Positions 9,406-63,630 of a stretch of DNA of 63,630 bases are shown one piece after another; the first letter of the stretch is position 1, and the number at the start of each line of letters is the position of its first letter. The notes beneath the pieces are model-generated. The model did not search any database, was not told where the DNA came from, and saw nothing but the letters and a program-made list of their open reading frames with translations. Source of the stretch: Verrucomicrobiota bacterium (GTDB lineage Bacteria; Verrucomicrobiota; Verrucomicrobiia; Limisphaerales; J093); the NCBI GenBank assembly GCA_022710935.1, contig JAKLFY010000035.1:1-63630 (forward strand), in the 5' to 3' direction. A program made the position numbers and the translations under genes.

Positions 9406-10506
9406 TCAGGAGATCCAACCCCACACGGTCAGCACAACAAACCCGGCCAGCAACGCCACCCCCGCCCGCTCGATCCATGTTCCGCGCCTGTCCGAAGGCA
9501 CCGCCCGGTCGAAAAACGGGACCAGCGCGCACAACAGCGGGACAATCCCCATCAGGGCCATTCCCGCATACTCGAGCTTCCCGGGGAAGAGCTTCAGCGC
9601 CTGGTACTGCGCCAGGAAATACCACTCGGGCTTGATGCCCAGCGGCGCCGCTCCGAACGGATCCGCTTCCGCTTCCAACGCCCTGGGCCAGACCGCCGAG
9701 AGCGCCACCAGCAACGCGAAGGCCGCCAGCCAAACGGGCAGCTCCGACGCGAAATAGTCGAAGAAGAACTTCTTGTGCTTCTTCTGACGCGCCGGCAGAG
9801 CCGCAAACGAGTCGGGCTCGCTCATCCCCTGGATCTGCACGAAAAGCAGGTGCATCCCGATCAACCCCAGAACCGCAAGCGGCAGCACCACCACGTGCAG
9901 CACGTAGAATCGGCCGATCGTGTCGGTGGTGACCGTCGGCCCGCCTCGCAGCAGGCTGGCCATCCAGGGGCCGAGACCCGGCGCTTTCTCCATTTCCGTC
10001 AAGCCGACGTTGGTCGCGAAGAACGAAAGATCGTCCCACGGGAGCAGATAACCCGAGAATCCGAAGGCCATGCAGAGCCCCAGCAGCGCCAAACCGACCA
10101 GCCACGTGCCCTCGCGAGGCGCCCGATACGCCTTCATGAAGTACGCCGAGAACATGTGCAGAAAGAGCGTCAGGATCATCAGGTTCGCCGACCAGTGATG
10201 GATGCTGCGCATCAGATTGCCGTAGGGCACTTCCATCACGATCCGTTGCACCGATTGCCAGGGCTCGGCCGGTCGATAGTAGACCATCAGCAGGATCCCC
10301 GTGAAAACCTGGATCGCGAAAAAGAAGAGTGCCAGACCGCCCATCATGTACCACGCGGCGTGCCGATGCTCGGGCACTTTCTTGTTCCTTAAGAAATCGA
10401 CAATGGGCCACACCGGGAACCGCGCCAGCAGCGCCCGACCCAGCTTGCCCAGCGCCTTGTCCGCTGGCGGCAATTCCTTCAGAGCCTCCTCCGGTACCGT
10501 ATGCAT
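9406..10506 (-). CDS. Cytochrome b of a bc/b6f-type complex (b6 and subunit IV fused)
   Basis: The 366-residue quinol-oxidising membrane subunit. Heme ligands are H103 and H117 in helix B (SIHHWSANLMILTLFLHMF) and H204 and H219 in helix D (YVLHVVVLPLAVLGLIGMH). The 13/14 intervening-residue pattern is that of b6 rather than mitochondrial-type cytochrome b. The C-terminal part contains the PEWY quinol-site motif (GIKPEWYFLAQYQALK) and the extra helices of subunit IV. The ATG at 10506 is preferred over 10530 because the latter lies inside a palindromic repeat. It follows the Rieske gene and precedes the bd-like cytochrome gene in the same direction. Confidence 0.92.
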   Translation of the reverse strand: MHTVPEEALKELPPADKALGKLGRALLARFPVWPIVDFLRNKKVPEHRHAAWYMMGGLALFFFAIQVFTGILLMVYYRPAEPWQSVQRIVMEVPYGNLMRSIHHWSANLMILTLFLHMFSAYFMKAYRAPREGTWLVGLALLGLCMAFGFSGYLLPWDDLSFFATNVGLTEMEKAPGLGPWMASLLRGGPTVTTDTIGRFYVLHVVVLPLAVLGLIGMHLLFVQIQGMSEPDSFAALPARQKKHKKFFFDYFASELPVWLAAFALLVALSAVWPRALEAEADPFGAAPLGIKPEWYFLAQYQALKLFPGKLEYAGMALMGIVPLLCALVPFFDRAVPSDRRGTWIERAGVALLAGFVVLTVWGWIS

Positions 10507-10519
10507 GTGATCTGCTTTT

Positions 10520-10594
10520 CTAGCCCGCATCGCCCCACGTTCTGTGGTCCTTCGGCTTCGCCAGGGTCACAACTCGATGAAACATGCGGGCTAG
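10520..10594. repeat. 75-bp palindromic repeat (family R1) supplying the Rieske stop codon
   Basis: The ends form a perfect 11-bp inverted repeat, CTAGCCCGCAT/ATGCGGGCTAG. On the minus strand it reads CTAGCCCGCATGTTTCATC followed closely by TTGTGACC, matching the element at 31179-31252. The TAG stop of the Rieske gene (10591-10593) is part of the element. Weaker relatives lie at 51268-51338 and 56901-56975. Confidence 0.85.
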
Positions 10595-11064
10595 GCCTTC
10601 TCCGACCGATAGACATACAGAAGCCCGCCCTGTTCCGCCACCCGGTACCGGGTCAGCGGTTTGGGAGGCGGACCCGACACGTTCTTTCCCTCCAGATCAT
10701 AGACCCCTCCGTGGCAATGACAGTGAATCGAGCCGCCTTGGAACTCGACGTTGCACCCCGCATGCGTGCATTTGGACGACAGCGCCCTCAACTCGCCCTC
10801 GGACGTTCTGAAAACCACCAGACCTCCCCCCGCAAAGCCCGCGTTCCGCCCCTGGCCGGGCTGCGCGATGTCTTCCGCCTTCACCCCCTCGATTGGCGCC
10901 TTCCCCTCCGCGTCAAACGGGTCTTTCGGAATCGTTGGGGCAAGGTATCGGTAGACCGGGTAGAGCAATCCGCCCGCCCAAGCCATCGACAACAGGCCCA
11001 ACCCCCCCAGGAAGCGGCGCCTGCCCCCGTCCCCCTCCCGCCTGGTTCCATTCGAGTCTGTCAT
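10591..11064 (-). CDS. Rieske [2Fe-2S] iron-sulfur protein
   Basis: A 157-residue high-potential electron carrier that takes electrons from quinol at cytochrome b and passes them to cytochrome c. Cluster motifs are CTHAGC (C99, H101, disulfide C104) and CHCHGG (C115, H118, disulfide C117). The N-terminus has a twin-arginine-like stretch, GGRRRFLGGLG, followed by a hydrophobic anchor, as expected for Tat-inserted Rieske proteins. The ATG at 11064 is chosen over 11085 because GGGAGGG lies just before it. It is the first gene of the Rieske, cytochrome b, bd-like/cytochrome c, bd-like operon. The TAG stop lies inside a palindromic repeat. Confidence 0.95.
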   Translation of the reverse strand: MTDSNGTRREGDGGRRRFLGGLGLLSMAWAGGLLYPVYRYLAPTIPKDPFDAEGKAPIEGVKAEDIAQPGQGRNAGFAGGGLVVFRTSEGELRALSSKCTHAGCNVEFQGGSIHCHCHGGVYDLEGKNVSGPPPKPLTRYRVAEQGGLLYVYRSEKA

Positions 11065-47622: not shown

Positions 47623-47862
47623 GGAGGGGCGACGCCCTCGTCGCCCGCGAACGGATGCTGCGATTCCATTGGTCGGGGACGAGGACGTCCCCACCCCCAC
47701 GCCTCCGCGTGCACGAGTGGAGGGGCGACGTCCTCGTCGCCCGCGAACGGATGCTGCGATTCCATTGGTCGGGGACGAGGACATCCCCACCCCCACGCCT
47801 CCGCGTGCACGAGTGGAGGGGCGACGTCCTCGTCGCCCGCGAACGGATGCTGCGATTTCATT
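47623..47862. repeat. 96-bp tandem repeat, 2.5 copies (family R4 related)
   Basis: Units begin at 47623, 47719 and 47815 (exact 96-bp period). Each holds two hairpins, GGGCGAC-gtcctc-GTCGCCC and GGGGAC-gaggac-GTCCCC. The core also occurs once, diverged, inside the MITE-like element at 29103-29310. It fills most of the 400-base gap between the FucP gene and the next gene; no coding sequence is supported there. Confidence 0.9.
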
Positions 47863-47921
47863 GCCCTCGAGCAGGCGCGGCGTGATGAGCGAAACAGACA
47901 CATTTTCGAGCCGCACAGATA

Positions 47922-51267: not shown

Positions 51268-51338
51268 GCCGGCATGTTTCATCGCCATGGCAGAATGCCG
51301 CGAGGCGAGTGAGCCTGGTTTCGCCCCATGCAAGCCGG
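51268..51338. repeat. Diverged 71-bp palindromic repeat (family R1)
   Basis: Contains GGCATGTTTCATC like the R1 copies and is bounded by CCGGCATG and CATGCAAGCCGG, which can pair. It lies 31 bases after the upstream stop codon and 40 bases before the next ATG. Confidence 0.55.
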
Positions 51339-51378
51339 TGGCGAATCGGCGTCCGCCCGAATGAGAAGAAGGCCGATC

Positions 51379-54297
51379 ATGAAGAAGACCCTAAGAGCGA
51401 CATTGACGCTTGCCACCCTGCTCACAGCGCCGGTTTTGACCGGGGTCGGCAATGCCGCGGACACCATCGACGAGCGAATTACCCATGTCGGCGTCGCGTC
51501 GGGCACACGCGAGATCTCGCTCACCTGGACATCGAACTCGAACACCGTCTACGCGATCGAGCAAACGCCCCGATCCACGGGCGCGGAGTGGGAACCGGAG
51601 ATCGGCAGTAGACTGGCGCGGGGCTCGAGCACGACCGCCGAGCTCCCGCGTCCGGCCACCAACGTGCACGGCTTTCTGCGTGTGGCCCGGGATCTGAAGG
51701 CGACCCGCTACCGCAACGCGCTGGAATCCGCGGCCATCCGGCAGTCCACGCTCGGGGACATCGCTGACAACTCGCTGCTGATCGGCAACGGCGACATCAA
51801 CGCCCTGCTGTACGCCGGCAGCACCGGACTCAGGCTCCGCCTCACAAAGAACGATGTCTGGGATGCGCGCGTCAATACCGCATCCGACGCCCCGCTGGCC
51901 GCGATCGACATCGCCAAGGGCTCGATGAGCGGCGGCACGGATTCACCGGCGAGCTGGAATTTCCCCTATCCATGCCCGCTGGCGTGCGCCGTGCTCGACC
52001 TCGAATCCACCGCCAGTGCCGGCTGGCAGCAGATCCGGTCCGAGGGCTCGCTGAATCGGTGGGTCTCGACAAACGGGTTGGCCGTCATGTCGATACGCGG
52101 TGCGGCGGGGGCGTCGTGCGGCTGGCAGGGGGCGTTGAGCACCAGCCTGGTGGCCACGAACATCCATGTGCGCCTTTCGGGAACCAGTAATGCGCGCTAT
52201 TTCCTCGAGGTCATTACGGACGCCGGCCAATACACGGGCGGCACGGGCTGGAAAACGACCCCCACGTCCGAGAGCGATGCCTCCTTCAGCCTCCCGCCCG
52301 GCACCCGCGTCGCGCACATCGTCGTCTATGCCTGGACGACCGACAGCGCCCTGGCGGAAAACCGCTACTCCATCATCGAGTTGCGCGGGCCGTCCGGCAA
52401 TTACGCATTCGATCTGGGCCGCGTGGCCCATTCCTCCGCAACGAACTGGCTCGATCTGCGCAATGCGGTGGCCGCCGCTCCCGGGAGAACGCCCGGCAGC
52501 ACCCTCGCCGTGCGCGCGCTCGCCGATCGGAATGTGTTCCTGATTGAAGGCGACACCGATGTGACGCTGCGGCCCACAACCGCGCCCTTTGTGCCGCCCG
52601 CCCAACGCGGCACCCATGGGCCGGTCGAATACCTGGTGCAGACCCTCCCGCCCGATCCCGGCTATCCCGCCACGGGCGATTGGCCGGGCAGTTCTTTCGT
52701 CGTCGCCCGGGCCACGCGGGGTCCGCGCACGGCGGTCGCCATTGTCACCTCGCACGAATCGAGCAGTGCTCTGAACGACGCCATCGCGCTGGTTGCGTCG
52801 ACGCTGGACGCCGCTCCCGACGCTGTGATCCAGTCCCACGAAAGCGTCTGGAGCGACCACTGGGCGGCCTGCCGGATCGACCTCGATGACACGTACCTCC
52901 GGGACGTGTGGTATCGGAACCTTTACTTCATGCGGTGCGTCAGCAAGGCCGGCGTGAAACCCGTCGGGTTGTTCGCGGGTCTGGTGAGCGACTCCGCGGC
53001 CTGGCACGGCGACTATCACCTCAACTACAACGCGGAACAAACCTACTGGGGTTGGTACGCCTGCAACCACGCCGAATTGTCCGAGCCATACGAGTGGCTG
53101 ATCCGCGGCTACCTGCCCCGGGCCCGGTGGTTCGCCGGGCGCACGTACGGATGCGCCGGCGCGTTTTTCCCGCACAGCGTGTTCCTCTACGAACCGCCCG
53201 ACCCGGCGTCCTGCAAGAGCAGGAACGGACGCCAGGTCGCGTTCATTCCGTACACCTACACCCTTGGCGACGCCGGCTGGGCCATTCAAAACCTCTGGCT
53301 CCACTATAAGTTCGACCCCGACACCGCCCGGCTGCGCTCCCATCTTTACCCGGCGATCCGCGAAGTCGCCCTGTTCTACGCCGAGTTTGCCGACCGGTGC
53401 AGAACGAACAGCGCGACCGGCAGGATCGTCTTCGGCCCCACTTACAGCCCCGAGCACTGGAACTGGGGCAAACACGACGGCACCTGCGATATCGCGTTCG
53501 CGCGGGTTGCGCTCAAGGCTGCGATCGAGAGCGCGGGCGTGTTGGGCGAAGACACAGCGCTCGTGTCGCGCTGGCAGCAGACGCTCGAGAAGCTCCCGGA
53601 ATACCCGCGCACAGCCGGCGCGTCGCCGGTGGTCCTGGACGTGGCCGGCGTCTCGCCCACCACCTACAATGTCCCCGTGCCCGCCCTGCCGGTGTACCCG
53701 GCCGGCGAGGTCCATTGGTTCTCTCGATCCCCCGAGAAGCAGCTCTTTACGAACACAATCGCCCGGATCGCTTCAAACGGGAACAACGACCTCATCATCC
53801 TGTCGGGCGCCCGGGTGCGCCTGAGCATGCCCGACGCCTGGTCCTGGACCCGCGGCCGGTTCCTCGCCCGCCAGCGGCCCAACGGGACCCTGGCGTTGAA
53901 TGTGCTGGGAAGCGCCTTCAACGCGTACGGACATTACACCGAACAGTTCGCCGCCAGCAGTGTCATCGCCGAGATGCTCCTCCAGAGCGTCAACGACATC
54001 CTCCGATTCTTCCCCGCCTGGCCCTCGGACAAGGATGCGAGCTTCGAAAACCTGCGGGCCCAAGGCGGGTTCCTGGTCGGTGCGGATTTGACTGCGGGGC
54101 GGATCGAGAACATCCGGGTGGTCTCGACGGTTGGCGGGCGGCTGCGTTTTCTCAGCCCGTGGGCGGTCGAACCGCGGGCCCGCAGGAACGGCGAGCCGGT
54201 CAATCTCACCCTCGAGGACGGAGCGATCTACCGGGTGGACACCGTCGCGGGCGACCTCATCGAGCTGAGCGCAATGGGGTCGCATCTAAATAGTTGA
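51379..54297 (+). CDS. Secreted GH95-like glycosidase (alpha-L-fucosidase family)
   Basis: A 972-residue product with signal peptide MKKTLRATLTLATLLTAPVL; AGAAGG precedes the ATG. The GH95-type (alpha/alpha)6 core is marked by WHGDYHLNYNAEQTYWGWYA: D545, N549 and N551 match the LNxN pair used by characterised GH95 enzymes. TYSPEHWNWGKHDGTCDIAF supplies the conserved late Asp. However, the helix usually reading W-E-H-Y reads NLWLHYKF, so the Glu thought to act as acid is Leu. Activity on fucose or galactose is therefore not certain. The last residues (MGSHLNS) are encoded by a repeated sequence also found at the end of mazG. Confidence 0.75.
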   Translation: MKKTLRATLTLATLLTAPVLTGVGNAADTIDERITHVGVASGTREISLTWTSNSNTVYAIEQTPRSTGAEWEPEIGSRLARGSSTTAELPRPATNVHGFLRVARDLKATRYRNALESAAIRQSTLGDIADNSLLIGNGDINALLYAGSTGLRLRLTKNDVWDARVNTASDAPLAAIDIAKGSMSGGTDSPASWNFPYPCPLACAVLDLESTASAGWQQIRSEGSLNRWVSTNGLAVMSIRGAAGASCGWQGALSTSLVATNIHVRLSGTSNARYFLEVITDAGQYTGGTGWKTTPTSESDASFSLPPGTRVAHIVVYAWTTDSALAENRYSIIELRGPSGNYAFDLGRVAHSSATNWLDLRNAVAAAPGRTPGSTLAVRALADRNVFLIEGDTDVTLRPTTAPFVPPAQRGTHGPVEYLVQTLPPDPGYPATGDWPGSSFVVARATRGPRTAVAIVTSHESSSALNDAIALVASTLDAAPDAVIQSHESVWSDHWAACRIDLDDTYLRDVWYRNLYFMRCVSKAGVKPVGLFAGLVSDSAAWHGDYHLNYNAEQTYWGWYACNHAELSEPYEWLIRGYLPRARWFAGRTYGCAGAFFPHSVFLYEPPDPASCKSRNGRQVAFIPYTYTLGDAGWAIQNLWLHYKFDPDTARLRSHLYPAIREVALFYAEFADRCRTNSATGRIVFGPTYSPEHWNWGKHDGTCDIAFARVALKAAIESAGVLGEDTALVSRWQQTLEKLPEYPRTAGASPVVLDVAGVSPTTYNVPVPALPVYPAGEVHWFSRSPEKQLFTNTIARIASNGNNDLIILSGARVRLSMPDAWSWTRGRFLARQRPNGTLALNVLGSAFNAYGHYTEQFAASSVIAEMLLQSVNDILRFFPAWPSDKDASFENLRAQGGFLVGADLTAGRIENIRVVSTVGGRLRFLSPWAVEPRARRNGEPVNLTLEDGAIYRVDTVAGDLIELSAMGSHLNS
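54273..54293 (+). repeat. 21-bp sequence shared with 12305-12325 (family R3)
   Basis: AATGGGGTCGCATCTAAAT plus AG, identical to the reverse complement of 12305-12325. Here it encodes the last residues before the TGA stop of the GH95-like gene, in a different frame from the mazG copy. Confidence 0.85.
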
Positions 54298-54896: not shown

Positions 54897-56138
54897 CTAA
54901 GAGCGTCTGCAGGCAAAGACCTCCAAAGCTTCGAGGTCTGACGGGGTCACAATCTCTATGCCATTCAACTCATTTGCCCGCCTTTGCAGACTCGCGGCGT
55001 TTTGGGCGGTCGGTGTCTGATAGACCGCCAGGAAGCGACGGGTGAAGCGTCCCCCGATCGTGCGGGCACGGTTGTCCAGTTCGTCCAGCAGCGGCACCAG
55101 CCTCGCTTTGAGTCCGCCGCGTTTGCAGCAGAAATAGGCGATCTGCACCCCATCCACCCCAACGATGTCCTCCTCGAGGTCGAATCCCCCGCGGCGTTCG
55201 CCGATGTTGACGGACCAGCGCAGGTCGCGAAATTGGCCGCTGCGCGATGCGGCATCCACCACAGCTACCTCCCACCAGCCGCCTGAGAGAAAAGCGAGGG
55301 CGAACTGGAGAGGCCGCACGGCGTCGAAATACTCTTGCGGCTCCGGGCGTTCGGTTTGGGCGAGCTCTTCGAGGTCCGGGCGTGTGGTTGCGGGTAGATA
55401 CAAGGCAGCGCCGTGCGCCCGCGCCAGTCCGGCTTCCAGCGCCAACTCTCCGACCCTTGGCGGCAGGAGCCAGGGTTTGTCGAACAAAGGAAGCCAATCG
55501 TCCGCACGACGCGGTTCGCGTCCGTTGGGGCAAAGGCCTTTGGATCCGTGGGTTGCACACCAGGCTTCCTCTTCGTGGTGTTGATGCTCGAGGAGATGGC
55601 GCGCAAGCCTCAAGTAAGGTTTCCAATCCCGTCCGCCTGTGACCCGCTGACGCCCGTTGGCGGCGGCGATAGGGTTGACGGTCAGGGCCTTTTGGTGGGG
55701 TGTAAAACTGAAATCGTCGCCAAGGACCGAGTTGAGCTTGGGCCCTGTGTGCCCATCGATGAACTGCCGATGGTCGGTGTCGACGTAGAGGGACACGGAC
55801 TCTTCGCGGAGGGCCGCTTCGTAGGCTCCGATCGACATCAGTTTGGTGCCGCCCGTGAAGTTGACCACGGGCGCGAGGGCGTCCGCCTTGGCCTCTTGCA
55901 TTGCGCGGATGACGGCGCGCGACGTTTCCGGGATCGAGGGCATCTCCGTCAGGCGGACGTCCTCCCGTGTCGTCTCGACGCTGGCTTGGCGAGCCGCTTC
56001 GAGGATATAGGCTGAGCGGGCTGCGGTCCTTGGCGTTGCGAGGTGAAACACCTTCGCGGGTTTGAGCGCGAGCAGCGGCAGGAGGTTCTGCATGGTCTGC
56101 TCGCTGATGAGTTGGATGAGGGCAAGGGGTTGAGGCAT
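54897..56138 (-). CDS. Card1/Can2-like CARF-domain nuclease (DUF1887 family)
   Basis: A 413-residue protein. The N-terminal CARF domain reads LIQLISEQTMQNLLPLLALK and later VVNFTGGTKLMSIGAYEAAL, the NxTGGTKxM ligand-pocket motif of the DUF1887/Card1 group. These bind cyclic oligoadenylate made by Cas10 during type III CRISPR immunity. The C-terminal part is a PD-(D/E)xK-type nuclease: SGGWWEVAVVD, then FDLEEDIVGVDGVQIAYFCCKRG, where the metal Asp and the Lys are kept but the usual Glu before the Lys is Cys. In known members, activation gives cutting of ssDNA, ssRNA or nicking of plasmids. Here the cOA-producing Cas10 is missing nearby. Confidence 0.85.
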   Translation of the reverse strand: MPQPLALIQLISEQTMQNLLPLLALKPAKVFHLATPRTAARSAYILEAARQASVETTREDVRLTEMPSIPETSRAVIRAMQEAKADALAPVVNFTGGTKLMSIGAYEAALREESVSLYVDTDHRQFIDGHTGPKLNSVLGDDFSFTPHQKALTVNPIAAANGRQRVTGGRDWKPYLRLARHLLEHQHHEEEAWCATHGSKGLCPNGREPRRADDWLPLFDKPWLLPPRVGELALEAGLARAHGAALYLPATTRPDLEELAQTERPEPQEYFDAVRPLQFALAFLSGGWWEVAVVDAASRSGQFRDLRWSVNIGERRGGFDLEEDIVGVDGVQIAYFCCKRGGLKARLVPLLDELDNRARTIGGRFTRRFLAVYQTPTAQNAASLQRRANELNGIEIVTPSDLEALEVFACRRS

Positions 56139-56171: not shown

Positions 56172-56375
56172 TCAGTTTGCGCCGCAGCATTTTTTGTACT
56201 TCTTGCCGCTGCCGCACGGACAAGGCTCGTTTCGGCCAGGGCGTGGCTCGGAGCGAGCCGGCGTTGGGGGCGGTGCGAGACTCTCATCGGCGATGTCGTC
56301 GGAGTCGAGGGCGTCCAGATCCCAGGGGCGCGGCGCGGAGACCGGGCGTGACTTGTCATGGCACAGGGACAACAA
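56172..56375 (-). CDS. SEC-C motif small protein
   Basis: A 67-residue protein whose end, [20 protein letters not shown], is a SEC-C zinc-binding motif (C-x-C ... C-C), like the tail of SecA. The N-terminal 45 residues are acidic and disordered. Stand-alone SEC-C proteins are common, sometimes in defence or mobile regions; roles are unknown. It ends 33 bases before the Card1-like gene on the same strand and may be co-transcribed with it. Confidence 0.8.
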
Positions 56376-56519: not shown

Positions 56520-56849
56520 TCAAGTAACAGCGGTGCGGAGTTGGTCGACTTCGGGAATCAGGCCCATGGGGATGAGCGGCAAGATCGACGGATGCGACTC
56601 GGCGAGGCGGGTCAGATCGAGCCGGTCCTTCTGGCGTTTGGTGGCGCGGCGCGCGGGGTCGGCGGCCGCCCAAAGCTTGCCGCGGACGAGGTCATCGAGG
56701 GCGGCCACGGGCAGGCGGACGCCGAAGAGCTCGGCTTCGACGGCGCGCGCGGGGAACGTGGCGTAGCGGTCATTGACGGTGACCCATCGGCCCTCAAAAG
56801 GGCACACCGCAGAGGGGCAGGGTGATGGGAAATCAAGCGGACTGCTCAT
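56520..56849 (-). pseudogene. Probable remnant of a nucleotidyltransferase-like antitoxin/defence protein
   Basis: A 109-residue frame. The C-terminal part (LFGVRLPVAALDDLVRGKLW, then RRATKRQKDRLDLTRLAESH) matches the end of a nucleotidyltransferase-like family common in Verrucomicrobiota, usually about 160 residues with an N-terminal GSxxxxD site. Here the N-terminus is short, Pro/Cys-rich and lacks that site, so the gene looks truncated by recombination. It could instead be a short functional member. Confidence 0.5.
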
Positions 56850-56999: not shown

Positions 57000-57101
57000 G
57001 GTCGCCTCTTGCGTTTACGCATCGAGCCACCGGTGGTCGAGCGGCGGTATCGGGTGAGCCTCGCCTGCGAGGTCGAAATCGAGGAACTCATGCGAGATTA
57101 G
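57000..57101 (+). pseudogene. Possible 3' fragment of an unidentified gene
   Basis: A plus-strand frame with no start reads about 33 residues, RLRIEPPVVERRYRVSLACE then VEIEELMRD, to a stop at 57099-57101. It has protein-like composition but no upstream continuation beyond the R1 repeat. I do not recognise it; it may be debris from the rearrangement of this region. Confidence 0.25.
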
Positions 57102-57103
57102 GC

Positions 57104-58081
57104 TCACAGCTCCTGCCAAGTGTCGGGCTGCGATTGATGACTATCCAGAGCCGCCCGGGCCCGGTCGAGTATGTCCCTCTGCGAGGCGGTTATCAGCAAG
57201 CGCAACTGGCCGCCGAGTCGCACGATCTTGAATCTCACTTTCGACGCTTCGCGCCCGCCCCGCGCTTTGCCGAAGATGTGCGGCAATCCATCGACTGTAT
57301 CGGTGGCGGCTTGCCTCAATGCGTCGAGGCTGTCGCCGATTTCGCGTCCTGCGATGAAGACGGGCCAACTGCAGCCCAATCGGTCCAGGCGCTGGCGCAG
57401 TTCGGACGGGGTTTGGGGCGCCGTACCGTCGGCGGGCCAGACATTGCCGCCGCCGCGATTGGCACGCAGACCCAAGGCGCCGAGCAGAAGCCAGACTTCG
57501 AGAGCGGCCTCGACTCTTGCCTGGAGCTCAGGGCGCAACGGGCCAAAACGGCTGATGACCTCAAGTTTGAAGTTGGCGCCAGCTTTGAATGCGGCTTGAG
57601 GGCTGGCCTGCCCACCATGCTTGTGCGGTAGAGTGGGAATTCCAGGTGTGGGGGCAGGTTGGGCGCGGATCTGAGTGGCTTCGAATGTCTCAACTCGGCC
57701 TCCAAATGACCTGCGGAGATCATCAAGGAAACGAGCTGCATTGGCATTGGCTGCCGGTGACAGCCCGTGGGCAGCCTTTGCGACCGTGGCCATCTTGGCT
57801 GCCACGCTGGCGTCACGCAGGAGTCTGTCGGCCTTCTCTGGATTCCTTTCTGTAAGCCTGTCTGCTTGGCTCTTCAAATTGGAAGGATCCTTGGTGAGCA
57901 GGTCGGCGCCTCGGCTGACAATCCGCAGCACGCTCCATCGGCTGGCCTGATCCAGCTTCTTGCCGCCTCCGAGTGCGGACTCCTTGGGCAGCGCGAATTT
58001 CTGATGCAACAGCGAGCGGTTTTCGACCGCCTCGGCCCAGTCGCCGATGAGTTGGCGGACGTCGGGGCTAATCGGAATCAT
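57104..58081 (-). CDS. Type III-B CRISPR RAMP fusion: Cmr6-like N-terminus joined to Cmr1-like C-terminus
   Basis: A 325-residue frame. Residues 1 to about 120 (VENRSLLHQKFALPKESA, then ASRWSVLRIVSRGADLL) look like the start of Cmr6. From about residue 155 the sequence changes to the end of Cmr1: LPHKHGGQASPQAAFKAGAN, then WLLLGALGLRANRGGGNVWP, the Gly/Arg loop of RAMP proteins, and a Cmr1-like tail VRFKIVRLGGQLRLLITA. Cmr6 and Cmr1 are normally separate proteins of about 300-400 residues each. The frame is open throughout. The start overlaps the Cmr2'-'Cmr5 remnant by 14 bases, consistent with cmr5-cmr6 order. Probably a deletion product. Confidence 0.62.
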   Translation of the reverse strand: MIPISPDVRQLIGDWAEAVENRSLLHQKFALPKESALGGGKKLDQASRWSVLRIVSRGADLLTKDPSNLKSQADRLTERNPEKADRLLRDASVAAKMATVAKAAHGLSPAANANAARFLDDLRRSFGGRVETFEATQIRAQPAPTPGIPTLPHKHGGQASPQAAFKAGANFKLEVISRFGPLRPELQARVEAALEVWLLLGALGLRANRGGGNVWPADGTAPQTPSELRQRLDRLGCSWPVFIAGREIGDSLDALRQAATDTVDGLPHIFGKARGGREASKVRFKIVRLGGQLRLLITASQRDILDRARAALDSHQSQPDTWQEL

Positions 58082-58235
58082 CGCTGCCTCCCTCGCGATT
58101 GCCCTTCTTGACGAAGCGTTTGGCGTAGGACAACCAGGCCAGCGCCTCGTCAGTGGCTTGTTTGAGTGTCGAGCTGTCCGCCTGCTGCGTCAGGTAGGCG
58201 GCGAGTTTGCGTTTCCAGAAGCTGGGTTCAGTCAT
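58068..58235 (-). pseudogene. Cmr2 (Cas10) start fused in frame to Cmr5 end: deletion remnant
   Basis: A 55-residue frame. The first 15 residues, MTEPSFWKRKLAAYL, match the start of Cmr2/Cas10 (normally followed by HDPP and the HD domain). The rest, TLKQATDEALAWLSYAKRFV then KKGNREGGSDDSD, matches the C-terminal helix and tail of Cmr5. Everything between, about 5 kb in a full operon (most of cmr2, all of cmr3 and cmr4, most of cmr5), is absent. No Cas10 Palm or GGDD motif remains, so neither target binding nor cyclic oligoadenylate synthesis is possible from this locus. Confidence 0.7.
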
Positions 58236-59020: not shown

Positions 59021-59132
59021 CAGACCCTAAGTTAGTACTGAGCGAGCCCTCGTGCATGTGTTTGACATGGCCGGTCCGTCGCCCGCCAGGCCTGGCGCAA
59101 CTCGCAAGCTTCTAACTTAAGGGCTGACCCTG
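59021..59132. repeat. 112-bp element with R2-type ends at the CotH gene stop
   Basis: The right end, ACTTAAGGGCTGACCCTG (59115-59132), is identical to the arm of the 113-bp element at 21197-21309. The left end (CAGACCCTAAGTTAG) is a partly degenerate inverted copy, so the overall size matches too. The right arm encodes the last residues (ARVSP) and the TAA stop of the CotH-domain gene. Confidence 0.7.
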
Positions 59133-62100
59133 GCCTCTTGCACCATCAGGATCTGGTAGAACCGCAACGCAACGTCGTCGGTTGTCGAGTCGGTCAGGCT
59201 GGCGGTCGCGCTTTGAGCTTGCACTTCGGCCGGCAGTTCGGTCCAGGAACCGTTCTCGAGATCCTCGCAATACCGCACGCGATAGGTGCGTCCGGGCAAG
59301 GCCTCCCATGTCAGCGTCACGCCTGTGGCGGGATCCGAGCGCACCTCGAAGATCCGGATCTCCGGCCACTCGGTGGACGCGATGCGGTTCGGTGCCCCCG
59401 GCGTGGGCGGAGACATCCGGTAATAGGGTAGTGGCGCGGCGTCGGGCCAGCGCCCCTCGCTGCGGTCGGTTTCCTGCGCAGCGAAGACCACCTGATCGAT
59501 GGGCCGGCCCGTGGCGTCCGCGAGAAGGATCTGTTCCCCCAGTTGGTCGAGTCGGAAGTTCACGTGCAGATCGCCATTGGGGCGGGACTGTTCGGGCTGC
59601 CCGTCGGCCCAGACGAGGAGATAACCGTGTGGCGGGATGTAGAAGCCCTGCGGAACGACGAACAGAGACGGTGTCGCCGGATTGTCGCTGAGCCAGAACC
59701 CGGCGATCGAGACCGGGCTGGGGCTTGGATTGTGGATTTCGAACCAGTCGTCGAACGCGCCATCCGCGGGATCGGCCACAGCGCCCTGGTTCGAGGCCAT
59801 CCATTCGTTGATGAGGAGGTCGGGGGGCGGCGTGTTTGTGCTCGAGCACTCGATCCGGATCGAGTCGGTGGCGTCCGCGACGGGTTGTCCGGCGCGGTCG
59901 AGTCCCTGGACGTCGAGCGCGTTGGCGCCCGGTTGCAGGGTCAGCCTGAGGCTCCAGCGTGTGGGTGAGAACCAGGAGAGGGGGTAGGGGATCCCGTTGA
60001 CGGTGATCGTGCGGATCCAGACCGGGGCGGTGCCGGTGAGGGTGACGACGGTTTGGGGGGTGGTGTGGTCGTTGCCATTATTGGTCGTGATGGCAAAGGC
60101 GGCCTCGACCGTTTTCAACTGGCCTTCGAGGTACGCGCGGCGCTGACTGATCCAGGACTTGATGGCACCGGGGCTGTTCAGGCCGACATTGTTGGCGCGG
60201 AACGCGGCGTACTTGGCGTCGAGGATGGGGTCGATGGCGCTGGCGCGGAAGAACGTCTGCATGGCCTCGTGCAGGCCGGCCCAATAGCGCCGGACGAAGG
60301 CAGGCGTCTGATACATGCGCTGGATGGCGGGGTCGCCCACGTCGAACAGCGGCGCGTCGGGGGGGTCGTTGAACACGCCAAGGCCGACATCGAAGTCCCA
60401 GCACATCAGTTTCCAGGAATCGCGTTCGGGCTTGTAGAGGAAGGTATTTTTTGCGTTGGGATTGCCGAACGCATCCCAGAACGACGCCAGGTCGTTCATG
60501 GCGAAGGTCAGCATCCAGTGATCGACGTCGACAATCGTCTCGACGCGTCCGAGGTACTCGTTGGTGGCGTTGACCGCATCGACCAGGGCGAAGAGCGGCG
60601 CGAAGTCGTTCGCGGACCCGCGCACGGCGCGGGGGCGCCAATTCCAGCGGTAACGGGCGGTGTTTTTGCGGCCGTCGGGCAGGGTGAAGGGTTCGAGGGT
60701 GTTGAGGAGGCACGGATCGAGGCGGTAGCCGGCGTTGTCGAACTCGTTCCAGCAATCGGTCTTGTAAAGGTGCCCGCGGTCGTCGCCAGGGAACCATTCC
60801 TCGATGGTGTCGCTGCCCGGCTGCTGGACATCGTCGTAGATGGCGCCGCGCCGAATGCCGTTGACGAACAGGTGCACATAGCGGCGGTACATGTTGGGCA
60901 GGCCGTACTGATCGAGGAACCAGTACATGAGCTGTTCGCGTTGGTCGGTGTCGTCGCGCACGGGCCAGTCGAGCGTGACATGCCGTTCGCCGAGAAACCG
61001 GTCGTCGGCGGGAAGGTTGACGTCATACCCGCAGAGATTGCCGGTGGGGCTGGTGTAACCGGGGGAGGTGTAGGAACTGCCGCTGTAATGCGCGCCGGCG
61101 TTGTAGATGACCCGGTTGGTTCCATAGACGAACGTGGCGTCGACGTCGTCGTTGCTCATTTTTTCGCGGCTGGCCCAATGGGCGTGGGACGCCGCAGTGA
61201 TCCAGAGATGATAGTTGGCGAAAGCGCCCGGCACATGGTCCTCGCCGACCCTGACGAGGCATTCGCGCGCGGGCGCGTCGGCGGGGAACCGGTTGGTCGC
61301 GGGCGCGGCGTGGGCATCGAGGGCCTCGACAAAGAACGCGACGAGGGTTCCCTTCGGCTGGGCGGGGAGAACAGCCGAGTAGATGCCGTCATTCGGGAAT
61401 TCGTCGGATCCCGCGCCGTCATCAGACATGGCCACCGCCGTGGTGACGGGACCGGGATCGATGCGGTAGTGGACGAATGCGCCGGCAATCCCATCGGGAT
61501 CGCTGAGGCGGGCTTCGACGCGAATGGGTTGTCCGGACGGCGGCAAGACAGGGCGATGGGCGACGCCGGTGATGGCGGGAGCTGCATTGGCGCGGTTCTG
61601 GCTGTTGCGCGCGGCGGGGGTGCCGAGATTGTCCGGGAGGGTCAGGCGTCCACAGGCTTCGAGAGCGCCCCCGCGAAGGCGCAGGAGGATTTCAGGGTGC
61701 CCTTTGAGCCAGCGGACCCGCGCGCGAATCGTGACCGACGATCCGACGGGGATGCTCGATTGGAGCGGGGTGAAGGCGCGGTTGGCGACGTGATCTCCGC
61801 GTTCGGTGGCCACGAGGCGCAGCGAGCGGGCGCTCTGATGGCCTCCGTTCTTCTCCCACGCGCTGTGGCTTTGAGTGCCTTGGAATGTCCAGCCGTTCAG
61901 ACCGCTCTCGAAGGTCGAATTGGCAATCCGATTGTTGCCGGCGACGAGAACTTGCACCGTGTCGACCAGCGCCTCGCCCGGGCCCATCAGGAAGATCTGG
62001 AGTTGTTCGGCGGAGGGCATCGACGGATGCGGCGAGACGAGGGGGCCGGTGGCCTCGACGGTTGTCCAGGGGGCCTTGGCGGTCTCGTCGCTGTCGGCCC

Positions 62101-63630
62101 AGTTGGGAGCCAGATCGGCGTCGGCTCGAGGATCGATCCGTTCCAGACTGCTGCCGCCGCCGTCCGCCCAGCGACCCCATCGACCGCCATCGCGGTAGGT
62201 GACCTCATCGATCTGCACCCATGCGGGTTCGGGGGCCGGTTCCTCCTCCGGGGAGGCCGCGCCATCGAATCCGAGGGGCGCTTCGAGCGCGATGCGCTCG
62301 CCTCGACCGGAGAGAGTGCCTGTGAAATCTCCGAGGATGAGAGCGGGATCGACGTCGGGGCGATTGGCCCGGAGGCGCGCCGCGTTGCGGGCAACCACCA
62401 GACAACCGCCCGGGGCGATCGGCGTGCCGGGTGGAAAGCGGAACTCGATGCCATCGGCGAGGCGCCATCCGCCCAGATCGAGCTCGTCCGGCCCGGAGTT
62501 CTGGAGTTCGACGTATTGGTCGTCGTCGGTCTCCGAGATCGGGTGGTACATGATTTCATTGATCACGACGGCCGAGCGGCGCGGACGCGCGTTGATCGCG
62601 CCTGGCGTGGGCCGATCGAGTGCGTGCAGGCGATCCGCGCCATCGGGGAACCGTCCGAAGGCCGCGCCCTGCCATTGGGGGGTGAGACGGACGGCATCGA
62701 GGATGCGGTCGAGCGCGGGGTGGCTCAGGAACACCGATTCGCCGGCTGCATCCAGGGCGAACCCGAGTTGGGTCTCGTCGAACACGACGAACCCACCCGG
62801 GGCGAGCACCGTGCCATCGGGGATGCGGAATTTGGCTGCGATGCGATCGTCGCTCAGGTAACAGCCGGCGAGGTCGGCCGGGCGCGGGCTGCTGTTGTAG
62901 AGTTCGATGAAATCGGGCTGGCCTGGATCGGCATGGCCGAGGAGTTCGTTGATGACAGTGCCGGCCAGCGGATCCGCGGGGGGCGGGTCGGGCCTGCCGG
63001 GCGAGCCGCCCCTGGCCATGCTCGAAGCCCAGGCACGGGAGTCCCTCTCGCCATAGCTCGGGCAAACCAAAACCAACGAGTGACCTGTGCCGTCCGGGGC
63101 GACAGGCCAGGGGTAACGGTCCGCATAAGAGACCTCGAGGACGACGGCGCCGGAGCGTTTGCGGAGGCGGATGGTGCCGCCTTCGTTGGCGAGTTTGCCG
63201 TCGAAGGGGCCCAGCACGTTGGTTGCGCCGGACACCGCGCGCAGGTCGTCAGGCACGGCGGCCACGACGAGATAACCGTTGCCGGCAAGGATTGTGTTCG
63301 GAGGAAAGGTGTAGTCGCATTCCCCTGAGAAGCGCCATCCGCTGAGATCCTCGAAGAAGGGATTCGAGTTGTAGAGCTCGATGAACTCGACGTTGTTCGA
63401 GTCGGCGCGAGGCGCGGGCTTGTACATGATTTCCGAGAAGACTATCCCAGTGCGGCGGCTTGACGGGCCGAGCGGCTCGCTGGTGTTCGGCGAAGGCCCG
63501 ACCACCGGGCTGGTCGTGACACCGGTGTTGCGTATCTGCGCGCTCATCAACACGCCGTTGGTGTGGCTGGAAATCGCGAACCCGAGGTAAAGCGTGTTGC
63601 TCGCCGTCATGGTGATGCCGCACACGGGCG
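59117..63630 (-). CDS. Giant secreted protein with CotH kinase-like and lamin-tail domains (5' end outside window)
   Basis: At least 1502 residues; the frame is open to the right edge, and the first residues (ITMTASNTLYLGFAISSHTN) look like the end of a DUF1349/LamG-type sandwich, so the start lies beyond the window. Three lamin-tail domains occur at about 60-170 (VFSEIMYKP), 222-345 (VINELLGH) and 353-470 (VVINEIMYHP). A CotH spore-coat/kinase-like domain spans about 800-1185 (NGIRRGAIYDDVQQPGSDTI, then KLMCWDFDVGLGV, with metal-site Asp residues). A fourth lamin-tail domain is at about 1270-1405 and a fibronectin-like C-terminal domain follows. CotH domains in other proteins act as atypical kinases; role here unknown. 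Confidence 0.85.
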   Translation of the reverse strand, partial: PVCGITMTASNTLYLGFAISSHTNGVLMSAQIRNTGVTTSPVVGPSPNTSEPLGPSSRRTGIVFSEIMYKPAPRADSNNVEFIELYNSNPFFEDLSGWRFSGECDYTFPPNTILAGNGYLVVAAVPDDLRAVSGATNVLGPFDGKLANEGGTIRLRKRSGAVVLEVSYADRYPWPVAPDGTGHSLVLVCPSYGERDSRAWASSMARGGSPGRPDPPPADPLAGTVINELLGHADPGQPDFIELYNSSPRPADLAGCYLSDDRIAAKFRIPDGTVLAPGGFVVFDETQLGFALDAAGESVFLSHPALDRILDAVRLTPQWQGAAFGRFPDGADRLHALDRPTPGAINARPRRSAVVINEIMYHPISETDDDQYVELQNSGPDELDLGGWRLADGIEFRFPPGTPIAPGGCLVVARNAARLRANRPDVDPALILGDFTGTLSGRGERIALEAPLGFDGAASPEEEPAPEPAWVQIDEVTYRDGGRWGRWADGGGSSLERIDPRADADLAPNWADSDETAKAPWTTVEATGPLVSPHPSMPSAEQLQIFLMGPGEALVDTVQVLVAGNNRIANSTFESGLNGWTFQGTQSHSAWEKNGGHQSARSLRLVATERGDHVANRAFTPLQSSIPVGSSVTIRARVRWLKGHPEILLRLRGGALEACGRLTLPDNLGTPAARNSQNRANAAPAITGVAHRPVLPPSGQPIRVEARLSDPDGIAGAFVHYRIDPGPVTTAVAMSDDGAGSDEFPNDGIYSAVLPAQPKGTLVAFFVEALDAHAAPATNRFPADAPARECLVRVGEDHVPGAFANYHLWITAASHAHWASREKMSNDDVDATFVYGTNRVIYNAGAHYSGSSYTSPGYTSPTGNLCGYDVNLPADDRFLGERHVTLDWPVRDDTDQREQLMYWFLDQYGLPNMYRRYVHLFVNGIRRGAIYDDVQQPGSDTIEEWFPGDDRGHLYKTDCWNEFDNAGYRLDPCLLNTLEPFTLPDGRKNTARYRWNWRPRAVRGSANDFAPLFALVDAVNATNEYLGRVETIVDVDHWMLTFAMNDLASFWDAFGNPNAKNTFLYKPERDSWKLMCWDFDVGLGVFNDPPDAPLFDVGDPAIQRMYQTPAFVRRYWAGLHEAMQTFFRASAIDPILDAKYAAFRANNVGLNSPGAIKSWISQRRAYLEGQLKTVEAAFAITTNNGNDHTTPQTVVTLTGTAPVWIRTITVNGIPYPLSWFSPTRWSLRLTLQPGANALDVQGLDRAGQPVADATDSIRIECSSTNTPPPDLLINEWMASNQGAVADPADGAFDDWFEIHNPSPSPVSIAGFWLSDNPATPSLFVVPQGFYIPPHGYLLVWADGQPEQSRPNGDLHVNFRLDQLGEQILLADATGRPIDQVVFAAQETDRSEGRWPDAAPLPYYRMSPPTPGAPNRIASTEWPEIRIFEVRSDPATGVTLTWEALPGRTYRVRYCEDLENGSWTELPAEVQAQSATASLTDSTTDDVALRFYQILMVQEARVSP

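Follow-up and report, generated by a model that had tools for sequence, protein, structure and literature searches.

The closest described relatives of the protein examined here are the CARF nucleases Can2, Card1 and Cdn1 (DUF1887, CARF4 clade; PDB 7BDV, 6WXW/6XL1 and 8Z4I/9U49, respectively). In Can2 numbering, the residues that bind cA4 are Ser19, Thr42, Lys99 and Tyr118 (PMC7969007). The metal site of Cdn1 comprises E274, E308, D310, E323 and K325, and each of the substitutions E308A, D310A and E323A abolishes activity (PMC12825302). VC1899 from Vibrio cholerae (PDB 1XMX) is a Card1-like protein with no type III partner in its genome, said to have been “cast adrift”, and its pocket has been lost, with D9, D34, R96 and V115 at the cA4 positions (PMC7969007).

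The window, meaning the whole stretch of DNA analysed (63,630 nucleotides of contig JAKLFY010000035.1 from a Verrucomicrobiota bacterium), encodes a protein of this kind, and the features of its gene were as follows.

54897..56138, minus strand: CARF-PD-(D/E)xK effector, Can2/Card1-like, 413 aa, of what is called below the SxK branch (ORF, Pfam, PADLOC, model).
55761..56120, minus strand: CARF domain, residues 7-126 (Pfam PF23400; Can2 alignment and the pocket residues of PMC7969007).
55836..55862, minus strand: NFTGGTKLM motif, residues 93-101.
54939..55346, minus strand: PD-(D/E)xK nuclease domain, about residues 265-400 (AlphaFold model, structure match, profile alignment to Can2, Card1, VC1899 and Cdn1).

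The effector ORF begins with ATG and runs through 413 codons without an internal stop. It is not a chance frame, as full-length homologues 70-73% identical to it occurred in three other genera and dN/dS was about 0.1 where measurable. The N-terminus matched the Pfam family CARF_Card1 (PF23400) over the cut-off (E=1.4e-10), and the PADLOC model CARF4-PDDEXK matched at E=2e-24. The Pfam family Card1_endonuc (PF09002) gave no match in the window effector and matched three of six aligned relatives (E up to 1; best 0.00067). By sequence, the best solved relative was Can2 (7BDV). An AlphaFold model built on 21 relatives reached a mean pLDDT of 93.6 and a pTM of 0.89, and its structure matches covered nearly the whole length, with VC1899 the closest (Z 30.3), followed by Can2 (29.4), Cdn1 (27.2) and Card1 (26.7), the last three spanning 329-352 residues; structures that matched through the CARF domain only scored Z 17 and below. 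The effector therefore shares domain order and whole-length fold with Can2, Card1 and Cdn1, although it is longer between the CARF domain and the nuclease core. The initial annotation had called the protein full length with an intact NFTGGTKLM pocket, and the alignment with Can2 bore this out: S12, T35, K99 and Y118, the four pocket residues common to Can1 and Can2, were all retained. We regard the protein as a putative nuclease that is, by sequence and predicted fold, a divergent homologue of the Can2/Card1 family.

Other Verrucomicrobia encoded full-length relatives of the effector (45-73% identity) on the downstream side of complete III-B operons, the normal place for a protein resembling Can2, Card1 or Cdn1. 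As the reference for such an operon we used locus L050, which comes from a genome in the host's order assembled as a single contig and where Cas10, Cmr3, Cmr4, Cmr5, Cmr6, Cmr1, a TIGR02710 protein and the effector follow one another intact. The window locus showed the same gene order with pieces missing, and the following remnants were located upstream of the effector.

58191..58235, minus strand: Cas10/Cmr2 stub, first 15 codons (29-nt identity to the cas10 start of L050).
58068..58190, minus strand: C-terminal portion of Cmr5, continuing the reading frame of the Cas10 stub (62% identity to L050 Cmr5 over 47 aa; Pfam Cas_Cmr5).
57674..58081, minus strand: N-terminal part of Cmr6, about 136 aa, continuing in frame into Cmr1 (50-53% identical to the Cmr6 proteins of L050 and L051).
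57104..57673, minus strand: C-terminal part of Cmr1, about 189 aa (54-58% identity to Cmr1 of L050 and L051).
57021..57098, minus strand: C-terminal 26-aa tail of a TIGR02710-family CARF protein (tblastn match, reading frame, same tail in L050).
56520..56849, minus strand: weak AbiEii-like nucleotidyltransferase piece (Pfam E=0.041, below the cut-off; 58% over 36 aa to L052).
56172..56375, minus strand: short ORF immediately preceding the effector, with a SEC-C zinc motif at its end (Pfam SEC-C E=2e-11).

At the first junction, the 15 cas10 codons led directly into the last 40 codons of cmr5, the joint falling at the short shared word TACCT (YL). The stub encodes the 15-residue peptide MTEPSFWKRKLAAYL, and its DNA, TTCTGGAAACGCAAACTCGCCGCCTACCT, was identical over 29 nt to the start of cas10 in L050, which confirmed the proposal that Cas10 had been reduced to 15 residues. 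At the second junction, about 136 codons of cmr6 were joined in frame to the last 189 codons of cmr1, and at the third, the cmr1 stop was followed directly by the final 26 codons of the TIGR02710 gene. The AbiEii-like piece is part of the degraded DNA that separates cmr1 from the effector. As the L050 order was preserved with three broken junctions, Cas10, Cmr3, Cmr4 and most of the remaining operon have been removed by at least three deletions, and the last gene alone is whole. An in-frame outcome at both large deletions would be expected by chance about one time in nine. Of a Cas10 with GGDD and of Cmr1 and Cmr3 to Cmr6, the host genome held solely the 15-residue stub and the Cmr5, Cmr6 and Cmr1 pieces. 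The picture of an intact Card1-like effector beside a dead Cmr locus, with no Cas10 left, was thus upheld.

The locus was flanked by genes for a 1502-aa CotH/lamin-tail-domain protein (window 59117-63625) and a GH95-like glycoside hydrolase (51328-54297). GC3 was 0.82-0.84 in these flanking genes versus 0.69-0.74 in the cas remnant, a contrast consistent with foreign origin of the locus. Near-identical 96-bp tandem repeat units at window positions 47623-47863, ahead of a 1104-aa ORF, do not look like a CRISPR array, given their spacing and the lack of variable spacers.

The degree of drift in the remnants gave an indication of the age of the loss. The Cmr1 piece was 54% and 58% identical to its counterparts in L050 and L051, which shared 57% identity between themselves; for the Cmr6 piece the values were 50% and 53%, with its counterparts sharing 51%. 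As these pieces were undrifted, the loss was recent on this time scale. The effector had kept 80 of the 81 columns invariant in nine relatives, and its terminal branch measured 0.18 versus 0.12-0.16 in its sisters. Its dN/dS to two sisters was 0.08-0.15, a value that mostly reflects evolution preceding the loss, since synonymous distances were near saturation. An intact ORF was therefore rejected as evidence of selection: with dead Cmr1 and Cmr6 neighbours equally undrifted, the condition of the effector is no proof of continued use. Three readings of the orphan had been offered at the outset (in-trans activation from another type III locus, response to a different cyclic nucleotide, and early decay), and early decay, or recent stranding, fitted best, as the deleted neighbours were themselves undrifted. 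In the phylogenies, the effector grouped with L015, L017 and L019, and the Cmr1 and Cmr6 pieces with L050 and L051; judging from these groupings, effectors and Cmr modules have probably recombined among Verrucomicrobia loci.

In the intact relatives, recognition of target RNA would lead Cas10 to make cyclic oligoadenylate, most likely cA4, which would bind between the CARF domains of an effector dimer and close the two nuclease domains on nucleic acid. With Cas10 and most of the Cmr complex deleted, the continued use of the effector would depend on another source of signal, and the host assembly (7.5 Mb, 95.7% complete, 4.3% contamination, 259 contigs) was searched for one. The Cmr2 profile TIGR02577 gave no Cas10 match anywhere in the host genome at E up to 10; the same search was positive for 20 of the 24 genomes searched from the order, all 24 of which encode CARF relatives, indicating that the method works in this group. 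A 909-aa Cas10 taken from another genome in the host's taxonomic family and used as query also found none in the host assembly. The Cas10 palm domain (PF22335) gave nothing over the cut-off in the host genome; its single match (E=0.83) was rejected as a Cas10, lying in an ORF of another kind (L014). The sole match to the RAMP profile was the window's own Cmr1 piece. On these searches, a second type III locus was rejected for the host assembly. No plasmid copies were found, and no viral contigs. No CD-NTase cyclase was detected either: the host genome held no SMODS match and no DncV-like match, the latter by a weaker search that was positive in one control genome only. No source of cyclic oligoadenylate was detectable in the host assembly, and in lacking Cas10 this genome differs from those of Can2, Card1 and Cdn1.

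Cas1 matches in the host genome were set aside as a sign of type III, as the full Cas1 belongs to a type I-C locus with Cas3, Cas5, Csd1/Cas8c, Cas7, Cas1 and a large CRISPR array. This locus is intact (G000 C1:173974-188400; L011, L012) and its array contains over 80 repeats, GTCGCCCCGGTGTTCGCACCGGGGCGCGGATTGAAAC. Type I-C systems make no cyclic oligoadenylate. Beyond the array, at C1:189281, Cas4/Cas1 occur again as a partial copy, and a partial Cas1 (profile positions 60-198) lies inside a 510-aa ORF (L013:7765-9294; G000 C112:58721-59170), adjoining an Eco57I-type methylase and away from any CRISPR locus seen.

These results bear on whether the effector could still be used in trans, answering to cyclic oligoadenylate from a Cas10 in the unassembled 4%, on a plasmid or in a type III system on a mobile element, with the in-frame fusions kept so that expression of the effector was undisturbed. 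The intact reading frame, pocket and fold are in line with such use, as are the in-frame outcome at both large deletions and the effector phylogeny, which differs from that of the Cmr pieces and suggests that such effectors move between loci. However, no Cas10 or RAMP was present elsewhere in the assembly, leaving the proposal that the effector answers to another type III locus unsupported, and the undrifted Cmr pieces look equally intact without any use; we regard in-trans use as improbable. Sensing of a different cyclic nucleotide made by a CBASS-like cyclase, which had also been proposed, found no support in the genome, where SMODS and DncV-like cyclases were lacking. The CARF pocket is intact despite the loss of Cas10, as this reading would have it, but its residues match the cA4-binding ones of Can2, and we give the idea hardly any credence.

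The deletions themselves may reflect assembly errors or strain mixture, in which case the real organism would carry a complete III-B locus. Undrifted pieces, two clean in-frame junctions, the 4.3% contamination and the 259 contigs would all fit such an artefact. On the other hand, the missing Cas10 and RAMP genes were on no other contig, three separate junctions would be needed, and the Cas10-Cmr5 joint lies at a shared word (TACCT/YL), as is often the case in real illegitimate deletions; an artefact accordingly seems quite improbable. The preferred reading is that the protein was an ancillary effector of a III-B system recently lost by the lineage, and is now stranded, foldable and silent with an intact sensor. 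We consider this fairly likely; the assembly is 95.7% complete in 259 contigs, and its missing portion, or a plasmid that was lost, could still encode a Cas10. The silence of the stranded effector in the cell, any residual activity and cA4 as its ligand are what we infer.

The initial annotation also drew attention to the nuclease motif, read as D...CCK in place of D...ExK, which lies in the following stretch.

55122..55175, minus strand: active-site stretch E322-x-D324 ... C337-C-K339 (profile alignment, branch survey).

Residues C337-C338-K339 correspond to codons 55122-55130, the codon of C337 being 55128-55130. Profile alignment placed C337 at the Glu of ExK in Can2, Card1 (E308), VC1899 and Cdn1 (E323), confirming that Cys occupies the position of a metal-binding Glu. 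Of the five residues of the Cdn1 site, four had counterparts in the window protein (E290, E322, D324 and K339), and C337 replaced E323. When 320 genomes of the order were surveyed, along with 387 across the phylum, 20 aligned proteins were found to share the replacement, with Ser at the Glu position in 17, Thr in one, Ala in one and Cys in the window protein. E290, E322, D324 and K339 were identical in all 20, down to 25-30% identity. Together with L062, these proteins formed one Verrucomicrobia branch (the SxK branch; tree support 99), and cousins outside it had E or D at the Glu position. Cas10 with GGDD was present in all eight SxK loci having cas10 on the same fragment (L045-L052), which indicates that the missing Glu is old and belongs to a working III-B context. 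The anomaly of the motif was thus real, but it was not particular to this orphan, as the whole clade shares the replacement, eight of its members being shown beside GGDD-bearing Cas10. With S, T, A or C at this position across the branch, CCK was rejected as a sign of decay; it is a Ser-to-Cys step inside the branch, Cys337 being an inherited variant of the Ser that stands there instead of the second metal-binding Glu. The window effector thereby differs from VC1899, the precedent for a Card1-like orphan, in which the cA4 pocket was lost and ExK kept; here the pocket was kept and the missing Glu is an inherited exception.

Two further members of this group were observed. In L062 (G553 C11:48158), G, G and L stand at the places of E322, D324 and K339 and the CARF domain is kept; from its sequence it appears to be a natural pseudo-nuclease with a destroyed active site. 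In L057 (7969-9339; G305 C171), the SxK effector has no Cas10 in the 14 kb around the locus, and a weak Cas10 match (E=7.5e-5) lies about 16 kb away; a possible toxin-antitoxin pair, formed by two short ORFs, lies downstream (9558-10997).

Restriction enzymes of the Cfr10I/Bse634I/NgoMIV type use an SxK-type motif, with the helix that follows contributing the acid at about K+14. The window protein has acids at K+13 and K+14 (D352 and E353) that recall this SxK...E arrangement, and homology is not claimed. Unlike in the Cfr10I type, the acid is missing in several distant SxK members, D/E at K+13/K+14 being kept in the near branch only; no universal replacement for the lost Glu was found, and the branch cannot be explained by one substitute alone. 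The invariance of the four other catalytic residues across so wide a divergence favours some form of catalysis. The essential role of the same Glu in Cdn1 speaks against ordinary catalysis in the SxK branch. Quite possibly, and we put this forward tentatively, SxK proteins are working nucleases activated by cyclic oligoadenylate that do without the Glu essential in Cdn1, the metal ligand having moved to the next helix (D352/E353) or the metal being held by fewer protein ligands; metal, substrate or speed would then possibly have changed, and the window protein would be one such enzyme, stranded shortly after its Cas10 was lost. Alternatively, and as a question separate from the orphan state, the SxK proteins could be pseudo-nucleases in which the nuclease fold serves solely for binding nucleic acid or a partner. 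Cleavage by Cdn1 is abolished by E323A at this very position (PMC12825302), and Ala and Thr also occur there among the SxK proteins. However, retention of E290, E322, D324 and K339 throughout the branch runs counter to this reading, as does L062, a truly decayed cousin in which three of these residues were lost, and we think it unlikely.

Taken as a whole, the initial interpretation was partly supported. As for the orphan, it is a relic of an ordinary kind, with VC1899 as its precedent. What is new here is the SxK branch, although it may have been described earlier in the Makarova 2020 CARF classification or the Card1 paper. CARF nucleases are toxic when switched on, and a genome without Cas10 that keeps such an effector therefore offers a snapshot of type III immunity being dismantled. 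More useful than the orphan is the natural, branch-wide replacement of a Glu essential in Cdn1 while the other active-site residues were frozen. If the SxK proteins cleave, the sequence rule for predicting active CARF PD-(D/E)xK effectors must change; if they do not, a branch of type III effectors works by something other than cleavage.
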